This document shows, piece after piece, positions 13,200 through 22,704 of a DNA stretch of 64,000 nucleotides; within the stretch, counting starts at the first letter, position 1, and each line of letters opens with the position of its first letter. Source of the DNA: Thioalkalivibrio sp. ALJ16 (GTDB lineage: Bacteria; Pseudomonadota; Gammaproteobacteria; Ectothiorhodospirales; Ectothiorhodospiraceae); the NCBI RefSeq assembly GCF_000377345.1, contig NZ_KB898039.1, positions 62,001 through 126,000 on the forward strand, written 5' to 3'. Below the pieces are notes generated by a model, which was given only the letters and a program-made list of their open reading frames with translations, was not told where the DNA came from and did not search any database. The position numbers were made by a program, and so were the translations under genes.

Positions 13200-13238
13200 G
13201 TCCCCTGTGGCAGTGTGTGACCGCGAACCCGTCGGGCC

Positions 13239-13721
13239 CTACTCGGTGTCGCTCCGGGGTGAGCCGCCCGGGGTCCATTCCGCCTGCATCGCGAACAGAT
13301 CGACCAGTGCCCGGGCATTCGGATCGTCACAGCCGTGTTGGTCGATGCGCTGCTTCACCTGGGCCTGGATGTCTTCCTGGCCGCGCAGCAGGGTCGCCGC
13401 GATCTGCTCTTGGGTGGCTTCGGGGTGCTGGTCCTCCAGCGCCATGACGGAGCGCAGGTAGACCATCTGCTGATTGGCCAGAAACGCGATCATCTGGTCC
13501 TCTTCGACTTCCGTGCAGCGCATGGCGGCCGTACCGACGGCGACGAATTGACTCAGGATGGTCAGGATCTCGGGTGGTTCGTCGGCCTCAGCCGGGGCTA
13601 TCAGACCCATTAACAGCAACCATCCGAGCGTTGCGGCCCCGATGGTCGAAGCGCAAAGGCGGTGCGATCGCGTGCACGAGGCAAGGCCCGGACGGGCCGA
13701 ACTGGGGCGGGTCTTCTTCAT
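13239..13721 (-). CDS. Unrecognised exported protein
   Basis: A 160-residue protein with a long basic leader and a hydrophobic stretch ending LIAPAEADE, consistent with a signal peptide of about 46 residues. The mature part is helical and acidic, with Cys in MRCTEVEEDQM and in DQHGCDDPNARAL that could form a disulfide. GGAGGG before the ATG at 13721 supports the start; a longer start at 13742 lacks this. It is the first gene of the leftward run that continues with the 393-residue membrane protein 39 bases downstream. No family is recognised. Confidence 0.6.
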   Translation of the reverse strand: MKKTRPSSARPGLASCTRSHRLCASTIGAATLGWLLLMGLIAPAEADEPPEILTILSQFVAVGTAAMRCTEVEEDQMIAFLANQQMVYLRSVMALEDQHPEATQEQIAATLLRGQEDIQAQVKQRIDQHGCDDPNARALVDLFAMQAEWTPGGSPRSDTE

Positions 13722-13879
13722 CGTTTCCCTCCCTGGAAACATTGCCAGTACCCTTGATCAGGTGTGCCCCTAATCTAGATGCCAGGCGCGGGACTGTCAC
13801 CCCTTGGGTTGCCCTCGTGCTGATGGGGGTAGCGGGGCGGCCAGGTTGCCCTGGCCAGGCCGGGCGCGGGCTGCCGCTG

Positions 13880-14719
13880 CTACAGCGTGTGGCCGGTGAG
13901 GTGCTGGTAGAGGGCGAAGCCGGCGTCCCGATCCTGGCAGCGCAGGATGGCGGCGCGGCCGGGTGTGGACGGGTCCGGCTGCAGATGCACGCCGGCCGCC
14001 TCGGCGGCGCGGAAATCGGCGTCCTCCAGTTCGAGCTCGCCGAATACCGAGATGACGAAGCCGCCGGGGATCGGCGGGGGCGGGGTGAAGGGTTCGCCGT
14101 CTGCCAGTGCGACCCAGGCGGGGATGAACGCCGGGCCGTAGAAGTCGAAGAAGCCGTTGGAGCCGCGCAGGTGGGCCTCGATCGGTCGCCCGCCGATCAT
14201 CTCGATGTTGCAGATGCCGCTGTAGCCGGCCAGGTTGCGCCGCACCCAGTCGGCGATCCATGGCTCCACTTCGGGCACGGCGGCGCCGATCTCCCAGTAG
14301 ATCGGACGCGCGGCGTCCTTCTCGTCCGAGCCGCGGGTGTGGGCGAACCAGCGCACCTCGCCGTCCTCCACCAGGCAGTCGGTGCTGGTGTGGGCTCCCT
14401 CCAGGCGCTGGCACCAGAAGCTGCCGGGCTCGGCCGGTACCTCGCCGGCGGGCAGGGCGCGGGCATCCAGCCCCATGCCGGCGAGGTTGGTGATCGGCTT
14501 CACGAACACCGTGTCCGCCGCCCCTAGGCCCAGGTCCGTGGGCGCGACGCCGCAGGGCGCGGCCGTCAGGCCCGCATCCAGGGCCAGGCGCAGCTTGTCG
14601 TAGACGTGACGATGCGCGGGATTTAGCCGCCAGGCGGCGGCGTCCGACACCGCCACCTCCCGGCGCGGCTCGGGCCGGAAGATGTGCCGGCGCTCGGGCA
14701 GGACGCCGACGAAGGGCAC
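13880..14719 (-). CDS. ATP-grasp-like protein paired with a molybdoenzyme
   Basis: A protein of about 279 residues that I cannot place in a named family. The segment around IEMIGGRPIEAHLRG followed by SNGFFDFYG resembles the C-terminal catalytic strand of ATP-grasp enzymes, where acidic and Asn residues bind Mg-ATP, and VFVKPITNLAGMG resembles the Lys-containing nucleotide strand. A GTG start two bases after the molybdoenzyme stop is chosen, because the GGAGGCAGG just upstream can serve as ribosome binding site; the much longer ATG frame (to 15157) runs antisense-like through its neighbour. The tight spacing argues for joint function with the oxidoreductase, perhaps modifying its substrate, but that is inference. 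Confidence 0.6.
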   Translation of the reverse strand: MPFVGVLPERRHIFRPEPRREVAVSDAAAWRLNPAHRHVYDKLRLALDAGLTAAPCGVAPTDLGLGAADTVFVKPITNLAGMGLDARALPAGEVPAEPGSFWCQRLEGAHTSTDCLVEDGEVRWFAHTRGSDEKDAARPIYWEIGAAVPEVEPWIADWVRRNLAGYSGICNIEMIGGRPIEAHLRGSNGFFDFYGPAFIPAWVALADGEPFTPPPPIPGGFVISVFGELELEDADFRAAEAAGVHLQPDPSTPGRAAILRCQDRDAGFALYQHLTGHTL

Positions 14720-14721
14720 GC

Positions 14722-16845
14722 TCAGCCTGCCTCCGGCAGGCGTTGTTCGTGCCCGGCGTGCAGGCGTTCCACCTCGCACAGCAGCGACTTGAACGCGGGG
14801 AAGCCGCTGATCGGGTCGAGGTTGCGGTCGTCGGTCAGTTCGTTGACGTTGGCGTGGTTCCAGCCGTGCTGGCAGTGCGCCACACCGGGCTTGATGCGGT
14901 CGGTGACCTTTGCCACGAAGGCCACCCGCCCGCGCGGCGAGCGCACCTCCACGGTGTCGCCATCGGCGATGCCGCGCGCCGCGGCATCCTCGGGGTGCAG
15001 CTCCACCAGCGGCTCCGGCATCGCCCGGCGCATGCGCTCCAGGTACTGGTGCTGCGAGTGGGTGGCGTGCTTGTGGCGGGCCCCGCTGGTCAGAATCAGC
15101 GGGTAGTCCCGGGCGAGTGCTGGCGTGGAGACCGGGCTCTCGGCGGGTTCGCGCCATTCCGGCAGGCCGTTGTGCCCGGCCGCGCGCAGCTCGGCGGAAT
15201 CGAACTCCACCTTGCCGCTGACAGTGCGGAATCCGTGCAGCCGGTATTGGCGGTCACCGTCCTCGAAGCCATGCTCGACCATGTCATCCAGCGCCTTGGC
15301 GAATACCGTCACCCCATCCGGGTCGTTGTACACCTGTTCGCGGATGGTCTCGGGGATGCCCGCGGCGGCCTCGGCCCAGCAGGCCTCCAGGTCGCCGTTC
15401 CAGAACTGCTCGCCCATGCCCAGGCGCACGCCCAGCTCGAGGAACACCTCACCGTCGGCGCGCGCCTCGCCGCGCGGGGCCACGGCCCGATGGCGATAGC
15501 GCAGTTCGCCGCGGAAGTTGCAGCCGGGATAGGCGATCAGCGCCGGGCGCTCGAGGCTGGTGGCGGCCGGCAGCACGATGTCGGCCATGCGCGTGGCCGG
15601 GTTGTGGAAGAAGTCGGATGCGGCGAAGAAATCCAGTGCCCCCAGGGCCTGTTCCATGCGTTTGGAGTTCGGCCACATTGCGGTGTTGATGCCCATGGCC
15701 AGCAGCGCGCGGATCGGTTGTGGGCGGCCTTCGAGGATGGCATCCGGCAACAGCATGCTCTGCGCGGCCGGCCAGTGGGCCGTCCATACCGGGAAGGTCT
15801 CGTCGCCGATGCGCGGCGGCAGATTCTGCTTGCAGTGGTCGAACAGGTCGATCGGCTTCGGCGTGACCTTGTCGTTGAAGAAGCGGTTGCCACCCTCGCG
15901 GTCGATATTGCCGGTGATCGCCGCCAGCAGGATCACCGCGCGGTGATTCTGGAAGCCGTTGGAATGCTGCACGGTGGCGGTGGGCGAAAGCATGATCTGC
16001 GCCGGGGCGCGGGTCGCGTAGAGCTCGGCGGCGCGCTTCAGGTCGGCCTCCTCGATGCCGCAGATCGCCGCCACCCGCTGCGGCGGGAATTCCGCCACGT
16101 ATTCACGAAAGGCCTCCACCCCGTTGCCCCATTCGTCGAGGAAGGCCTGGTCCTGCCAGCCGTTCTCGAAGATCAGGTGGTGCATGCCCAGCGCGAGCGC
16201 CCCGTCGGTGCCCGGGCGGATCTGCAGGTGCACCTCGGCCTGCTCCGCCAGCGGGGTCACCCGCGGGTCCACGACCACGGAGGCGCAGCCGGGGCGTGCC
16301 GCGGCCAGCGCATGCTGATGGAACGGAGGGATGGACCCGCGCGGGTTGGTGGACCACACCAGCAGGCAGCGCGTCGCATCCGAGGCCACGGTGGAGGAGG
16401 TCTTGATCTTGGTGCCGAAGGTCACCTTCTCCGCCACCTTGGTGGCGGAGAAGCAGCAGCCGCTCTCGGTCAGGTAGTTGGGCGAGCCGAAGGCATGCGC
16501 CAGGCGTTGCAGCTGCGGCCGCGCCTCCTTGGTGTAGCCGGCGAAGAACGCGGCCGCCGGGGCACCGTGCGCGTCCCGGGTCGCGCGCAGGCGCTCGGCG
16601 ATGGTGTCCAGCGCCTCGTCCCAGGAGATGCGCTCGAACTCGCCGCTGCCGCGCGGTCCGGTGCGCCGCAGCGGGTACAGCAGGCGTTCGGGATGGTTGC
16701 GTCGATCCAGCTGCACGTAGCAGCGCGGACAGTCGGGGCCGTCGATCTTCACCGGCTCGCCGGCGGCATCCAGGGTGACGTCGATCGCGCAGTTGGCGTC
16801 GCATTCGTAGCAGGTGCTTTTCACCGTCGCCATCACCGGGGGCAT
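14722..16845 (-). CDS. Molybdopterin-dependent oxidoreductase (DMSO reductase superfamily), function unknown
   Basis: A 707-residue catalytic subunit of the DMSO-reductase superfamily. The N-terminus has a [4Fe-4S] motif, CYECDANC at residues 12-19 with further Cys at 39 and 42. The usual domains follow: WDEALDTIAERL, a double Cys in ESGCCFSATKVAEK where the molybdenum ligand normally lies, then NIDREGGNRFF, and a C-terminal pterin-binding domain with ARHKHATHSQHQY and GWNHANVNELTDD. There is no Tat signal, so it should be cytoplasmic. No iron-sulfur or membrane subunit gene is adjacent; the only partner is the ATP-grasp-like gene two bases downstream. Start at 16845 (MPPVMATVK) is preferred over 16941 because the extra N-terminus is not family-like; 16833 is also possible. 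The substrate cannot be read from sequence. Confidence 0.85.
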   Translation of the reverse strand: MPPVMATVKSTCYECDANCAIDVTLDAAGEPVKIDGPDCPRCYVQLDRRNHPERLLYPLRRTGPRGSGEFERISWDEALDTIAERLRATRDAHGAPAAAFFAGYTKEARPQLQRLAHAFGSPNYLTESGCCFSATKVAEKVTFGTKIKTSSTVASDATRCLLVWSTNPRGSIPPFHQHALAAARPGCASVVVDPRVTPLAEQAEVHLQIRPGTDGALALGMHHLIFENGWQDQAFLDEWGNGVEAFREYVAEFPPQRVAAICGIEEADLKRAAELYATRAPAQIMLSPTATVQHSNGFQNHRAVILLAAITGNIDREGGNRFFNDKVTPKPIDLFDHCKQNLPPRIGDETFPVWTAHWPAAQSMLLPDAILEGRPQPIRALLAMGINTAMWPNSKRMEQALGALDFFAASDFFHNPATRMADIVLPAATSLERPALIAYPGCNFRGELRYRHRAVAPRGEARADGEVFLELGVRLGMGEQFWNGDLEACWAEAAAGIPETIREQVYNDPDGVTVFAKALDDMVEHGFEDGDRQYRLHGFRTVSGKVEFDSAELRAAGHNGLPEWREPAESPVSTPALARDYPLILTSGARHKHATHSQHQYLERMRRAMPEPLVELHPEDAAARGIADGDTVEVRSPRGRVAFVAKVTDRIKPGVAHCQHGWNHANVNELTDDRNLDPISGFPAFKSLLCEVERLHAGHEQRLPEAG

Positions 16846-17209
16846 CTCGTCTGGGTAACCGAAAAAGGAATTCGAGTATGCAAAGCGGCAGGGGGCCTGG
16901 CGAACAACGCCACGAACCCCGGGGGTGACGCGGATCGCCATGCCGCGGCGAGGGGCGGGATTCGCAGGGGGCCGCCACAGATCGATGGGGCGGGGCGGAC
17001 TGTGCGGGGGTGGCGGCTGGTTCGCCGGACAATCTCAACAACCGGCTCCGGAGGGCATGAAGGAACCTTCGCGCGCATCCTTAATCCTCTACCTGAGGGT
17101 TTTCGCCTCACGGCCCCGCCCGGCCTCAGTCGCGACGAACCGCGCTGGAGCGAGGCTGCACATAACGGGAAGGCCTATCCGGGTTGTCCACCAGCAAGGA
17201 GAAACGCTT
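16846..17209. other. Divergent intergenic region
   Basis: This 364-base stretch lies between the leftward molybdoenzyme gene and the rightward BCCT gene and should contain both promoters. No convincing gene is present. The AAGGAG ribosome binding site for the transporter is at 17196-17201. I could not identify an operator or a confident promoter pair. Confidence 0.4.
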
Positions 17210-18799
17210 GTGCCCAGGGAACATGAAGGGTCGGAACCGGTTCGCAGCTCACGCATGGGCGATCCGCTGGTGGTGGGTATCAGTGTCGGCTTTGTCCTGC
17301 TCTTTCTTGCGGCCTCGTTGTTCGACATGGATGCGGTCGCTCGAGGTATCGGCGAAGGCTTCGCATCGACGGCGCGCTTGTTGGGTTCCTACTTTCAGCT
17401 CTTGTTGCTGCTCACCTTTGTAACCGCCCTCGGCTTGCTGTTTACACCCGCGGCCGGTGCCCGAATTGGGGGTCTGCCGCAGCCGGAGATGAGCCGTTTT
17501 CGCTGGATCTCGATCATCCTGTGTACGCTGCTGGCGGGTGGCGGCGTCTTCTTTGCTGCGGGGGAGCCGGTTTACCATTTTCTGGTTACGCCGCCGAGCT
17601 TTACGACCGAAGCCGGCACGGCCGAGGCGGTCGCCCCGGCGCTGGCGCAGTCGTTCATGCACTGGGGCTTTCTGGCCTGGGCCATCCTCGGCGCCCTGAC
17701 GGCGATTGTGCTGGCACATGCGCATTACAGTCGCGGGCTTCCGCTGCGTCCGCGCAGCCTGCTGGTTCCGGTTTTTGGCGAACGCGCAATGCGCGGTGCG
17801 TTCGGCAGCCTGGTGGATGCGATCTGCATCATCGCCGTGGTGGCCGGGACCGTGGGCCCTATCGGATTCCTGGCGACCCAGATGACCTTCGGGCTTGACG
17901 AGCTCTTCGGGGTAGGCGGCGGTTTCGGGGTTCAGCTGACCATTCTCGGTGGACTGGCCGCACTGTACGTAACATCGGCGGTAACCGGTATCCACCGAGG
18001 AATCCAGCTGCTGTCGCGCCTGAATGTGCTGCTGGTGCTGGCGATCGGGGCTGTCATCCTGGTGTTCGGCCCCACGCTTTTCCTCGTCAACAGCTGGTTC
18101 TCCGGCTTCGGGGCTTACGCGGATTCGTTTCTTGCCATGGCGACGCAGACGGCCGAGACCGCGCCGGACTGGTGGATGCAATGGTGGACGGTGTTTTTCT
18201 TTGCCTGGTTTCTTGGCTACGGGCCGTTGATGGCCGTGTTCGTGGCACGCATCTCGCGGGGGCGCACGATCCGCGAGATGATCCTGGCGATTGCCGTGAT
18301 CGCACCTGTTGCGACCACTGTATGGTTCACCCTGCTTGGCGGTGCGGGGATTCATGCCCAGCTCCATGGCGTGTTCGATCTGACCGAGGCGCTGAACGAC
18401 TTCCGTTTCGATATCGCCACCCTGACCGTGGCCCAGGCACTGCCGGGCGGATTGCTGATGGCGGTTGCGGTTCTCCTGCTGACGACGCTGTTCGTTGCCA
18501 CCACCGGGGACTCGATGAGCTACTCCATCGCCGTCGTCAGCACCGGCCACGATGACCCGCTCCCGGGATTGCGGGCTTTCTGGGGCCTGGCAATGGCGCT
18601 GATGGCCGGCGTGCTGCTCTACATGGGCGAAGGACAGATCAGCGTGCTGCAGCAGTTTATTGTCCTCACTGCGATCCCGGTATCGCTGATCCTGCTGCCT
18701 TCGCTCTGGACCGGGCCCCGCGCGGCGTACGCGCTTGCGCGCGAGCAGGGCCTGATCGCGCCGCTTCCCGGTCCTGGCACAGCACGCCCGCCCGGGTAG
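17210..18799 (+). CDS. BCCT family betaine/carnitine/choline-type transporter
   Basis: A 529-residue BCCT carrier with about twelve transmembrane helices. These carriers bring trimethylammonium osmolytes such as glycine betaine into the cell with Na+ or H+. The signature is the Trp-rich helix WWMQWWTVFFFAWFLGYGP followed by VARISRGRTIREM, very close to the family consensus. FFAAGEPVYHF matches the first-helix motif (GEP). The usual charged N- and C-terminal regulatory tails are short. The GTG start at 17210 is supported by AAGGAG eight bases before it. It is a single-gene unit. With PutP at the left edge it points to osmoprotectant uptake; the exact substrate is not readable. Confidence 0.88.
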   Translation: MPREHEGSEPVRSSRMGDPLVVGISVGFVLLFLAASLFDMDAVARGIGEGFASTARLLGSYFQLLLLLTFVTALGLLFTPAAGARIGGLPQPEMSRFRWISIILCTLLAGGGVFFAAGEPVYHFLVTPPSFTTEAGTAEAVAPALAQSFMHWGFLAWAILGALTAIVLAHAHYSRGLPLRPRSLLVPVFGERAMRGAFGSLVDAICIIAVVAGTVGPIGFLATQMTFGLDELFGVGGGFGVQLTILGGLAALYVTSAVTGIHRGIQLLSRLNVLLVLAIGAVILVFGPTLFLVNSWFSGFGAYADSFLAMATQTAETAPDWWMQWWTVFFFAWFLGYGPLMAVFVARISRGRTIREMILAIAVIAPVATTVWFTLLGGAGIHAQLHGVFDLTEALNDFRFDIATLTVAQALPGGLLMAVAVLLLTTLFVATTGDSMSYSIAVVSTGHDDPLPGLRAFWGLAMALMAGVLLYMGEGQISVLQQFIVLTAIPVSLILLPSLWTGPRAAYALAREQGLIAPLPGPGTARPPG

Positions 18800-21504
<2,705 letters not shown>

Positions 21505-21621: not shown

Positions 21622-22704
21622 CTACAGCCAGCCACGGCGGCGGAAGAAGTACAGCATCCCCGCGACCACCGAGAGCATGACCAGCCAGACTACGGGATAG
21701 CCGTAGTAGGTGTAGAGCTCGGGCATGGACCAGGGGCTGTCCGGGTTGTCGAAGTTCATGCCGTAGATACCGACCAGGAAGGTCAGCGGGATGAAGATGG
21801 TGGCAATGATGGTGAGTACGCGCATCACGTCGTTGGAGCGCTGGTTGATCGCGGACATGTAGGCCTCGATCAGGGTGGCGGCCATCTCGCGGTAGGACTC
21901 CAGCAGATCCATGATCTGGATGGTGTGGTCGTGGGCATCGCGCAGATAGGGGAACAGCTCCGGCGTGAACGGCTCCAGGTCGTCGCGCATCAGGCGGGCG
22001 ATCACGTCGCGCGTTGGCCAGAGCTGACGGCGCAGCACGAGGAGCTCGCGGCGCAGGATGTGGATCTGGTTCAGGGTATTCCGGTCGGGCTGGTCGAGAA
22101 CGGTCTCCTCCAGGGTCTCCAGGCGACCGCTGATGTGTTCCAGCACCGGGAAGGCCTGGTCGATGACGGTGTCCATCAGGGCATAGGCGAGGTAGGCGGC
22201 GCCCAGACGGTTGAAGTTGCGGTTGGCGCTGCGCATGCGTTCGCGGATCGGGGCGAAGGGGTCGTGTTCGCCGCTGTGTACGCTGATGACCACACGCTCG
22301 CCCACCATGAAGACGTTGACCTGGTCCAGCTCGACGCTGCCGTTGTGATGGCGCGGCTGGCGCAGGATCGCGACCAGTTGCCCCTCGAAGAAGTCCACCT
22401 TGGGGCGCTGGCCCTGGTGGCGTACGTCCTCCAGCGCCAGCGGGTGCAGCCCGAAGGCCTCGCCCATGGCATGCAGTTGCTGCGAGCTGGGAGTGCCCTG
22501 CAAGTGCAGCCAGACCAGCCCGCCCGCGTGGGCACCAGCGCCGTCCCTGAGGGTGCGCTGCGCGTCCAGCTCGGAGAGCTGTTCGTGGTGATAGTGCCAG
22601 GCCGACACGGTGGCGTCGCCGGTGTGCGGGTGTTCACTGGCGTGGGCGCCGTGGCCTGGGGCGGCACCGGGCTTGAGGTAGGTCTTTTCAAACAGGCGGG
22701 TCAT
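21622..22704 (-). CDS. corA: Magnesium/cobalt transporter CorA
   Basis: A 360-residue CorA-family (2-TM-GxN) divalent-cation channel. The defining YGMNFDN motif ends the first transmembrane helix (TIFIPLTFLVGIYGMNFDN), and a second helix follows before the basic tail RRRGWL. The long N-terminal cytoplasmic domain of about 300 residues, with extended coiled helices, is typical. CorA pentamers import Mg2+ down the membrane potential; some relatives carry other metals. The N-terminal tail is His-rich (HGAHASEHPHTGD), unusual for the family and possibly a metal contact. It converges with katG. The region before its ATG is shared with the divergent universal stress gene. Confidence 0.93.
   Translation of the reverse strand: MTRLFEKTYLKPGAAPGHGAHASEHPHTGDATVSAWHYHHEQLSELDAQRTLRDGAGAHAGGLVWLHLQGTPSSQQLHAMGEAFGLHPLALEDVRHQGQRPKVDFFEGQLVAILRQPRHHNGSVELDQVNVFMVGERVVISVHSGEHDPFAPIRERMRSANRNFNRLGAAYLAYALMDTVIDQAFPVLEHISGRLETLEETVLDQPDRNTLNQIHILRRELLVLRRQLWPTRDVIARLMRDDLEPFTPELFPYLRDAHDHTIQIMDLLESYREMAATLIEAYMSAINQRSNDVMRVLTIIATIFIPLTFLVGIYGMNFDNPDSPWSMPELYTYYGYPVVWLVMLSVVAGMLYFFRRRGWL

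Follow-up and report, generated by a model that had tools for sequence, protein, structure and literature searches.

A predicted acetylene-hydratase-like molybdo/tungsto-enzyme and a truncated ATP-grasp-fold protein: a gene pair of Thioalkalivibrio and other gammaproteobacteria

Why should a stand-alone molybdo/tungsto-oxidoreductase keep such close company with a protein of ATP-grasp fold? The question is raised by two neighbouring minus-strand genes in a stretch of Thioalkalivibrio sp. ALJ16 DNA of 64,000 nucleotides (nt), which we call the window and which lies on contig C3 of its 2.76-Mb genome (G000; G-numbers denote genomes here and L-numbers loci). One gene encodes the oxidoreductase (P0002) and the other the ATP-grasp-fold protein (P0001), and their association far exceeds chance. 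The answer that we favour, while giving it somewhat less than an even chance, is that the pair, presumably transcribed together, forms a soluble module of two enzymes in sulfur-oxidising gammaproteobacteria, in which P0001 would ligate the product of the metalloenzyme. The near-constant pairing points to an undiscovered metabolic step, and an ATP-dependent modification linked to a molybdenum-dependent reaction, which a sequence-only reading of this DNA had already proposed, may reasonably be inferred. The genes are laid out as follows.

14722..16833, minus strand: molybdo/tungsto-oxidoreductase P0002 of the MopB/dimethyl sulfoxide (DMSO) reductase superfamily, acetylene-hydratase-like, 703 residues, presumably cytoplasmic (Pfam and PDB relatives; start taken from relatives)
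14720..14721, minus strand: two-base spacer between the two genes (sequence)
13880..14719, minus strand: ATP-grasp-fold protein P0001, 279 residues, GTG start, without a recognisable pre-ATP-grasp domain (predicted structure)

The two-base spacing, remarked upon at the outset, is plain in the sequence, and translational coupling of the two genes is probable. The oxidoreductase start, by contrast, has to be moved from the original 16845 to 16833 (MATVKSTCYECDANC), 12 bases further in, where the relatives place it. P0001 begins with GTG, and most of its relatives have ATG, GTG or TTG at the same residue or no more than two codons away. The nearest named relatives are Thioalkalivibrio strains, the P0001 of ALE31 being 96% identical to that of the window.

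Association of the two genes

How constant is the pairing? Among 47 genomes of the order, P0001 was found in 15 and the oxidoreductase in the same 15, with none in the other 32, and in the genus of the window the pair occurs in 12 of 30 genomes. A survey of 146 genomes of the family around G001 (Thiocapsa sp. KS1) gave P0001 in 35, the oxidoreductase in 37, both in 35 and neither in 109 (Fisher p 1e-31, a figure that ignores shared ancestry). In these 35 P0001 genomes the oxidoreductase lay at most 500 nt upstream in 28, at a greater distance but still on the P0001 strand in four, and separate from P0001 in three; the genes are apart, yet both present, in G001, G002 and G003, which are the genomes of loci L018, L024 and L034. 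Across the class (369 genomes), both genes were found in G000, G143, G174, G216 and G288 and a close oxidoreductase alone in G128 and G357, while three genomes held oxidoreductase paralogues only and four held only distant P0001 relatives (214-229 bits). The matches in G068, G173 (two) and G319, at 393-420 bits to the oxidoreductase model, were set aside as paralogues, being 34-37% identical and having neither CxxCD nor the adjacent cysteines (for L109, in the stretches inspected). In the five-genome family around G216, the P0001 search found the gene in G216 alone, and among 398 genomes of the phylum the wider P0001 family appeared in two, G000 and G542. These counts may include misses, the number of candidates scored per genome having been at most six for P0001 in the class and phylum surveys, at most three for the oxidoreductase in the class survey, and 17 and 7, respectively, in the family survey. 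Taking close P0001 orthologues (>350 bits) from the order, family and class surveys together, there are 15 + 35 + 4 = 54 genomes, and the oxidoreductase is present in 54 of 54. In a plasmid collection there was no P0001 relative at E 1e-5 and one oxidoreductase relative (31% identity, E 1e-60).

The converse does not hold. Four genomes carry the oxidoreductase with no detectable P0001, namely G128 and G357 (loci L119 and L118; 68-69% identical) and G813 and G822 (L147 and L148; 76-78% identical), and all four proteins keep the CYECDANC and ESGCC motifs described below. P0001 was not found in the first two when every candidate was scored in a renewed search, nor in the last two in the family survey or in the 14 kb around the oxidoreductase. 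The dependence is thus one-way, of P0001 on the oxidoreductase.

A scan for P0001 loci in the genome_contigs collection (84,980 species, each represented by one genome), built on six short peptide patterns and yielding an incomplete list of 35 loci, extends the picture. Thirty-four of these lie in Thioalkalivibrio, Ectothiorhodospira, Chromatiaceae (Thiocapsa, Thiocystis, Thiorhodococcus, Allochromatium and others) and Thiothrix, all of which we take to be sulfur-oxidising gammaproteobacteria; the remaining one, L040, is from a distant alphaproteobacterial metagenome-assembled genome. In 30 of the 35 the oxidoreductase is found upstream of P0001 and shares its strand, at a gap of -1 to 413 nt in 27 and of 1.7-4.8 kb in three; in 16 loci the gap is -1 to 5 nt, with a 1-nt stop/start overlap in three. 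Of the five loci without it (L018, L024, L034, L036 and L040), L034 has just 131 nt of upstream DNA, and the genomes of the first four encode the oxidoreductase elsewhere (1367-1506 bits), so that both genes are present for 34 of 34 gammaproteobacterial loci and the link outlasts the loss of adjacency. The L040 genome has only a generic oxidoreductase relative (130 bits). The gene-neighbourhood survey that the sequence-only reading had called for therefore finds the homologues both co-located (30 of 35 loci) and co-occurring.

Across 36 loci (the 35 relatives plus the window, with flanks of up to 10 kb), the pair has no recurrent neighbour that would be an iron-sulfur, membrane or other redox partner, and, the pair itself apart, no gene cluster occurs in more than seven; the neighbours were mostly assigned from sequence only.

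The two proteins

What kind of enzyme is P0002? The molybdopterin domain (PF00384, E 1.7e-44, 152.8 bits) and the dinucleotide-binding domain (PF01568, E 4.1e-33, 114.1 bits) are both above cut-off, and inspection by eye revealed no twin-arginine signal at either 16833 or 16845, in keeping with its first description as a DMSO-reductase-type enzyme lacking that signal. The [4Fe-4S] domain model PF04879, a domain that is absent from some members of the superfamily, reached 14.6 bits, below its cut-off of 22.7, despite four invariant cysteines. The closest solved relative is acetylene hydratase 2e7z of Pelobacter acetylenicus (E 1.2e-69 with the single sequence, 9e-84 with a profile); formate dehydrogenases rank behind it, and thiosulfate reductase comes eighth in the profile search. 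In NCBIfam the best family is formate dehydrogenase alpha (TIGR01591, 274 bits against a cut-off of 666), and none of the best 25 of 28 families reached its cut-off. In an alignment of 20 oxidoreductases, with a mean column identity of 83%, three sites stand out.

16729..16812, minus strand: [4Fe-4S] motif C8-x2-C11-x3-C15-x19-C35, invariant in 20 of 20
16798..16800, minus strand: Asp12, counterpart of acetylene hydratase Asp13 (CxxCD) in alignments with 2e7z, invariant in 20 of 20
16453..16458, minus strand: adjacent Cys126-Cys127 (ESGCC), with Cys127 the presumed molybdenum or tungsten ligand by alignment with 2e7z, invariant in 20 of 20

Both CYECDANC and ESGCC are unchanged in all 20 relatives. 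The ligand alignment that had been suggested puts ESGCC at the metal-ligand position, with Cys127 on Cys141 and Cys126 on Met140 of 2e7z (numbered with an offset of 3 derived in this analysis). Two of the early remarks need amending in the light of these sites. The cysteine pair, singled out as unusual, is indeed at the ligand position and invariant, and one of its members is an ordinary ligand, so that only the other is extra; the absence of iron-sulfur or membrane partner genes is correct as regards recurrent neighbours, and the enzyme bears an iron-sulfur motif of its own. Passages of a review, PMC12096430, describe Asp13, which adjoins the cluster ligand Cys12, as specific to the acetylene hydratase subfamily, and Cys141 as its strictly conserved metal ligand, and they also name Trp179 and Trp472. 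P0002 combines the cysteine ligand with the aspartate beside a cluster cysteine, the two marks of that subfamily.

Its likeness to acetylene hydratase thus covers the cysteine metal ligand and the CxxCDxNC cluster motif with the subfamily aspartate, along with the lack of any visible twin-arginine signal or recurrent redox partner gene. The differences are these: Trp179, Trp293 and Trp472, which we take to be the acetylene pocket residues, are replaced by Ser, Leu and Tyr, and Met140 by Cys; P0002 is paired with an ATP-grasp gene; and its hosts are presumably aerobic and phototrophic sulfur oxidisers, unlike that of acetylene hydratase. The replaced tryptophans rule out acetylene hydratase itself as the identity of P0002. 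An ordinary formate dehydrogenase or thiosulfate reductase was likewise rejected, the scores being far under cut-off and partner subunit genes not being seen; with formate dehydrogenases of the alpha/FdhF type (7qv7, TIGR01591), P0002 shares superfamily and domains, and it differs in its score (274 against 666 bits), its lack of visible partner subunit genes and its ligand region. As judged from these alignments, then, P0002 is most simply described as an acetylene-hydratase-like enzyme distinct from acetylene hydratase, with a metal that could be molybdenum or equally tungsten. Five more distant superfamily members (L106, L107, L108, L048 and L050) have neither CxxCD nor an adjacent cysteine pair within residues 90-220, and both are absent from the stretches of L109 that were inspected. 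An oxidoreductase structure model was not used (mean predicted local distance difference test, pLDDT, 46.8), and the suspicion of a frameshift or in-frame stop near the metal ligand of G921 and G928 was dropped, the flagged TGA and TAA being terminal stop codons only.

And what is P0001? Sequence libraries are silent on it: up to E 1 it has no counterpart among the families of Pfam or NCBIfam, finds nothing in the PDB by sequence (the sole profile match has a meaningless E of 1.9), and is not among the matches when PF02222 is searched against the window's own genome. The predicted structure speaks more clearly. An AlphaFold2 model built from 25 sequences has a mean pLDDT of 89.7 and a predicted template-modelling score of 0.85; its best Foldseek match is PurK (3eth, E 1.1e-10), and the 50 matches listed are all ATP-grasp enzymes by title. 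In VIA-align, the top matches are the L-amino acid ligases YwfE/BacD (Z 17.6-18.0), the model superposing on YwfE 3wnz with Z 18.0 and a root-mean-square deviation of 3.4 over 260 residues at 8% identity. Predicted structure, Foldseek and VIA-align agree, and the model clearly indicates an ATP-grasp fold, the character first suspected from motifs; in its sequence-library silence P0001 would represent an ATP-grasp family invisible to Pfam and NCBIfam models. Neither of the two outcomes that the sequence-only reading had named as refuting it, a predicted fold other than ATP-grasp or homologues lying apart in other genomes, came about.

The fold is curtailed at its front. In ATP-grasp enzymes a Rossmann-like domain usually precedes the core and helps to hold the small substrate; the P0001 model, in which confidence is low for residues 1-11, shows no strand ahead of residue 53, so this domain appears to be missing. 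P0001 accordingly shares the fold with YwfE/BacD (3wnz, 3vmm) over 260-263 residues at 7-8% identity, and differs from them and from PurK (3eth) in having no pre-ATP-grasp Rossmann domain in the model and no sequence-profile match. Three groups of residues were located in two alignments, A1 (25 rows) and the wider A3 (13 rows).

14594..14596, minus strand: Lys42, presumed first ATP-binding lysine, 13 of 13 in A3 and nearly invariant in A1
14498..14500, minus strand: Lys74 (FVKPI), presumed ATP-phosphate lysine, 25 of 25 in A1, Arg in 3 of 13 in A3
14165..14203, minus strand: Glu173 and Glu181-x-His183-x-Arg185, presumed Mg/ATP acidic strand pair, invariant in A1 (25 of 25) and A3 (13 of 13)

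The role of Lys42 is assumed from ATP-grasp relatives, and classic members often show E-x-N-x-R where P0001 has E-x-H-x-R. Mapped by eye, this Lys/Glu/Arg set may serve ATP and Mg binding.

The P0001 family has a wider reach. In L110 (1240-4187), L112 (8418-10358) and L113 (4816-7338), a distant P0001-type gene, its product 30-34% identical to P0001 and of the same truncated ATP-grasp family, lies beside a same-strand gene for an S15/CocE-type, X-Pro dipeptidyl-peptidase-like hydrolase in place of the oxidoreductase (PF02129 and PF08530 in L110 and L113; by eye from sequence in L112). A D-Ala-D-Ala-ligase-like ATP-grasp gene is near by in L110 and L113, and no hydrolase partner was seen in L111, L126 or L040. 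This arrangement is possibly another undescribed pair, and the truncated protein apparently serves as a module alongside more than one kind of enzyme.

Readings of the pair

What, then, might the pair do? In the two-step module that we favour, the oxidoreductase would carry a bis-pterin molybdenum or tungsten centre with Cys127 as ligand, one [4Fe-4S] cluster and Asp12, and would convert a small cytoplasmic metabolite, probably by hydration or another addition of oxygen that requires no dedicated electron partner. P0001 would then activate a carboxylate with MgATP to an acyl phosphate and join it to an amine, a thiol or a similar nucleophile, the oxidoreductase product being one of its two substrates. 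The coupled genes, their co-occurrence, the ATP-grasp fold with its YwfE/BacD ligase matches, the retained aspartate and cysteine ligand and the lack of a recurrent electron-transfer partner gene all argue for this reading, and the one-way dependence fits P0001 as a second step that has been lost in some lineages. Several observations weigh against it. With Trp179, Trp293 and Trp472 replaced, P0002 may catalyse a different reaction, possibly a redox one; three of 13 relatives (L115-L117), whose loci also carry the oxidoreductase, have Arg in place of Lys74; the catalytic residues of P0001 were placed by eye, hhalign comparison of its profile with those of PurK and PurT giving nothing significant (L128, L134, L129 and L139 were removed to leave a clean PurK set, and L129 and L139 served as PurT); and no transporter or third enzyme is widespread enough across the 36 loci to point to a substrate.

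A bolder proposal, possible but doubtful, is of an undescribed pathway in which a metabolite made ready by a non-redox enzyme of the acetylene hydratase type, using molybdenum or tungsten, is conjugated by a new ATP-grasp ligase that lacks the Rossmann domain, with the partner swapped between lineages (the oxidoreductase in sulfur bacteria, the S15 hydrolase elsewhere). Were it true, this would be the first such coupling and a new ATP-grasp family with a swapped partner enzyme; we know of no earlier ATP-dependent ligase functionally coupled to a hydratase-like molybdenum or tungsten enzyme. To our knowledge, substrates have been established for few enzymes of the acetylene hydratase branch. 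Here is a conserved clade (83% mean column identity) in ecologically important sulfur oxidisers, with an ATP-grasp companion, close orthologues of which turned up only where the oxidoreductase was present; this companion is a genetic clue narrowing the possible product. Both halves are directly testable in culturable hosts.

In the literature searched, mostly open-access articles and without bioRxiv preprints, we found no description of the pairing, in agreement with the sequence-only reading, which knew of none. PMC3578206 and PMC11237513, which contain both ATP-grasp and molybdenum terms, concern other proteins, as judged by their passages. Both halves belong to known superfamilies; it is the combination, the library-invisible ATP-grasp family and the acetylene-hydratase-like clade that appear to be undescribed.

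Could P0001 instead be a dedicated maturase or regulator, modifying the oxidoreductase, its pterin cofactor or the extra Cys126 at the expense of ATP? This is unlikely, and it does draw strength from the failure of every survey to find a close P0001 orthologue without the oxidoreductase, from the missing domain that usually helps to hold a small substrate, and from the extra invariant cysteine beside the metal ligand. The idea is weakened by the conserved oxidoreductases of G128, G357, G813 and G822, which keep ESGCC with no detectable ATP-grasp partner. Moreover, distant P0001 relatives exist with no oxidoreductase near by, three of them adjoining S15-type hydrolases, and a module shared among different enzymes is more readily understood as a metabolic ligase than as a maturase dedicated to molybdoenzymes.

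Rather improbable, in our view, is a redox role for the oxidoreductase in sulfur or metalloid chemistry (polysulfide, sulfite or similar) on a general ferredoxin, with P0001 making or loading a thiol carrier. The hosts suggest as much, 34 of 35 loci being in genera that we take to be sulfur oxidisers, and there are sulfur reductases among the DMSO-reductase relatives. Yet acetylene hydratase and formate dehydrogenases are the nearest solved relatives, thiosulfate reductase coming only eighth. Passages of PMC6382920, a sulfur-gene survey of 75 Thioalkalivibrio genomes, do not name the enzyme, and they report core sulfur genes in all strains, whereas the pair is in 12 of 30 genomes of the genus; a contribution to core sulfur oxidation is conceivable, though the case for it is weak.

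It is more improbable still that P0001 has lost catalysis altogether and serves the oxidoreductase, through its ATP-grasp fold, as a chaperone or subunit. Its truncated N-terminal region, the Lys74 to Arg change in three relatives and His183, where Asn is usual, speak in favour of this, while the invariance of Glu173, Glu181 and Arg185 (25 of 25 and 13 of 13) is unexpected for a dead site. Finally, the notion that the genes have no functional link and merely travel together, for which their patchy distribution and potential to move as a block might be cited, is very improbable given that co-occurrence holds where they are apart (L018, L024 and L036; G001, G002 and G003).

Surrounding genes

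Neither the window nor 10 loci contained a riboswitch or other RNA family above its gathering score, and a promoter and terminator scan of 13200-17300 gave one promoter-like site (0.3 in shuffles) and two terminator-like sites (1.5 in shuffles), nothing usable. In the window, a divergent gene upstream of the oxidoreductase (17129-18799, plus strand) encodes a transporter of the betaine/carnitine/choline family, and Thiocapsa-type loci have, as the divergent neighbour, a gene for an OpuAC ATP-binding cassette transporter of the glycine-betaine type (by Pfam in L120 and L028; by clustering in L025, L026 and L033). These transporter neighbours may be a coincidence or a hint of a quaternary-amine substrate. 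In Thiorhodococcus, Thiocystis and Allochromatium loci (L020, L021, L022, L029, L030 and L122), the divergent gene next upstream of the oxidoreductase, or the next but one, resembles those for type I phosphodiesterase/nucleotide pyrophosphatase, an assignment made with PF01663 in L029 only, by clustering in four more and by eye in L122. Beyond the transporter gene in the window come two frames of an ordinary kind, 18832-21504 (plus strand) and 21622-22704 (minus strand), the first of which resembles by eye a catalase-peroxidase (KatG) and the second a metal transporter of the CorA type.

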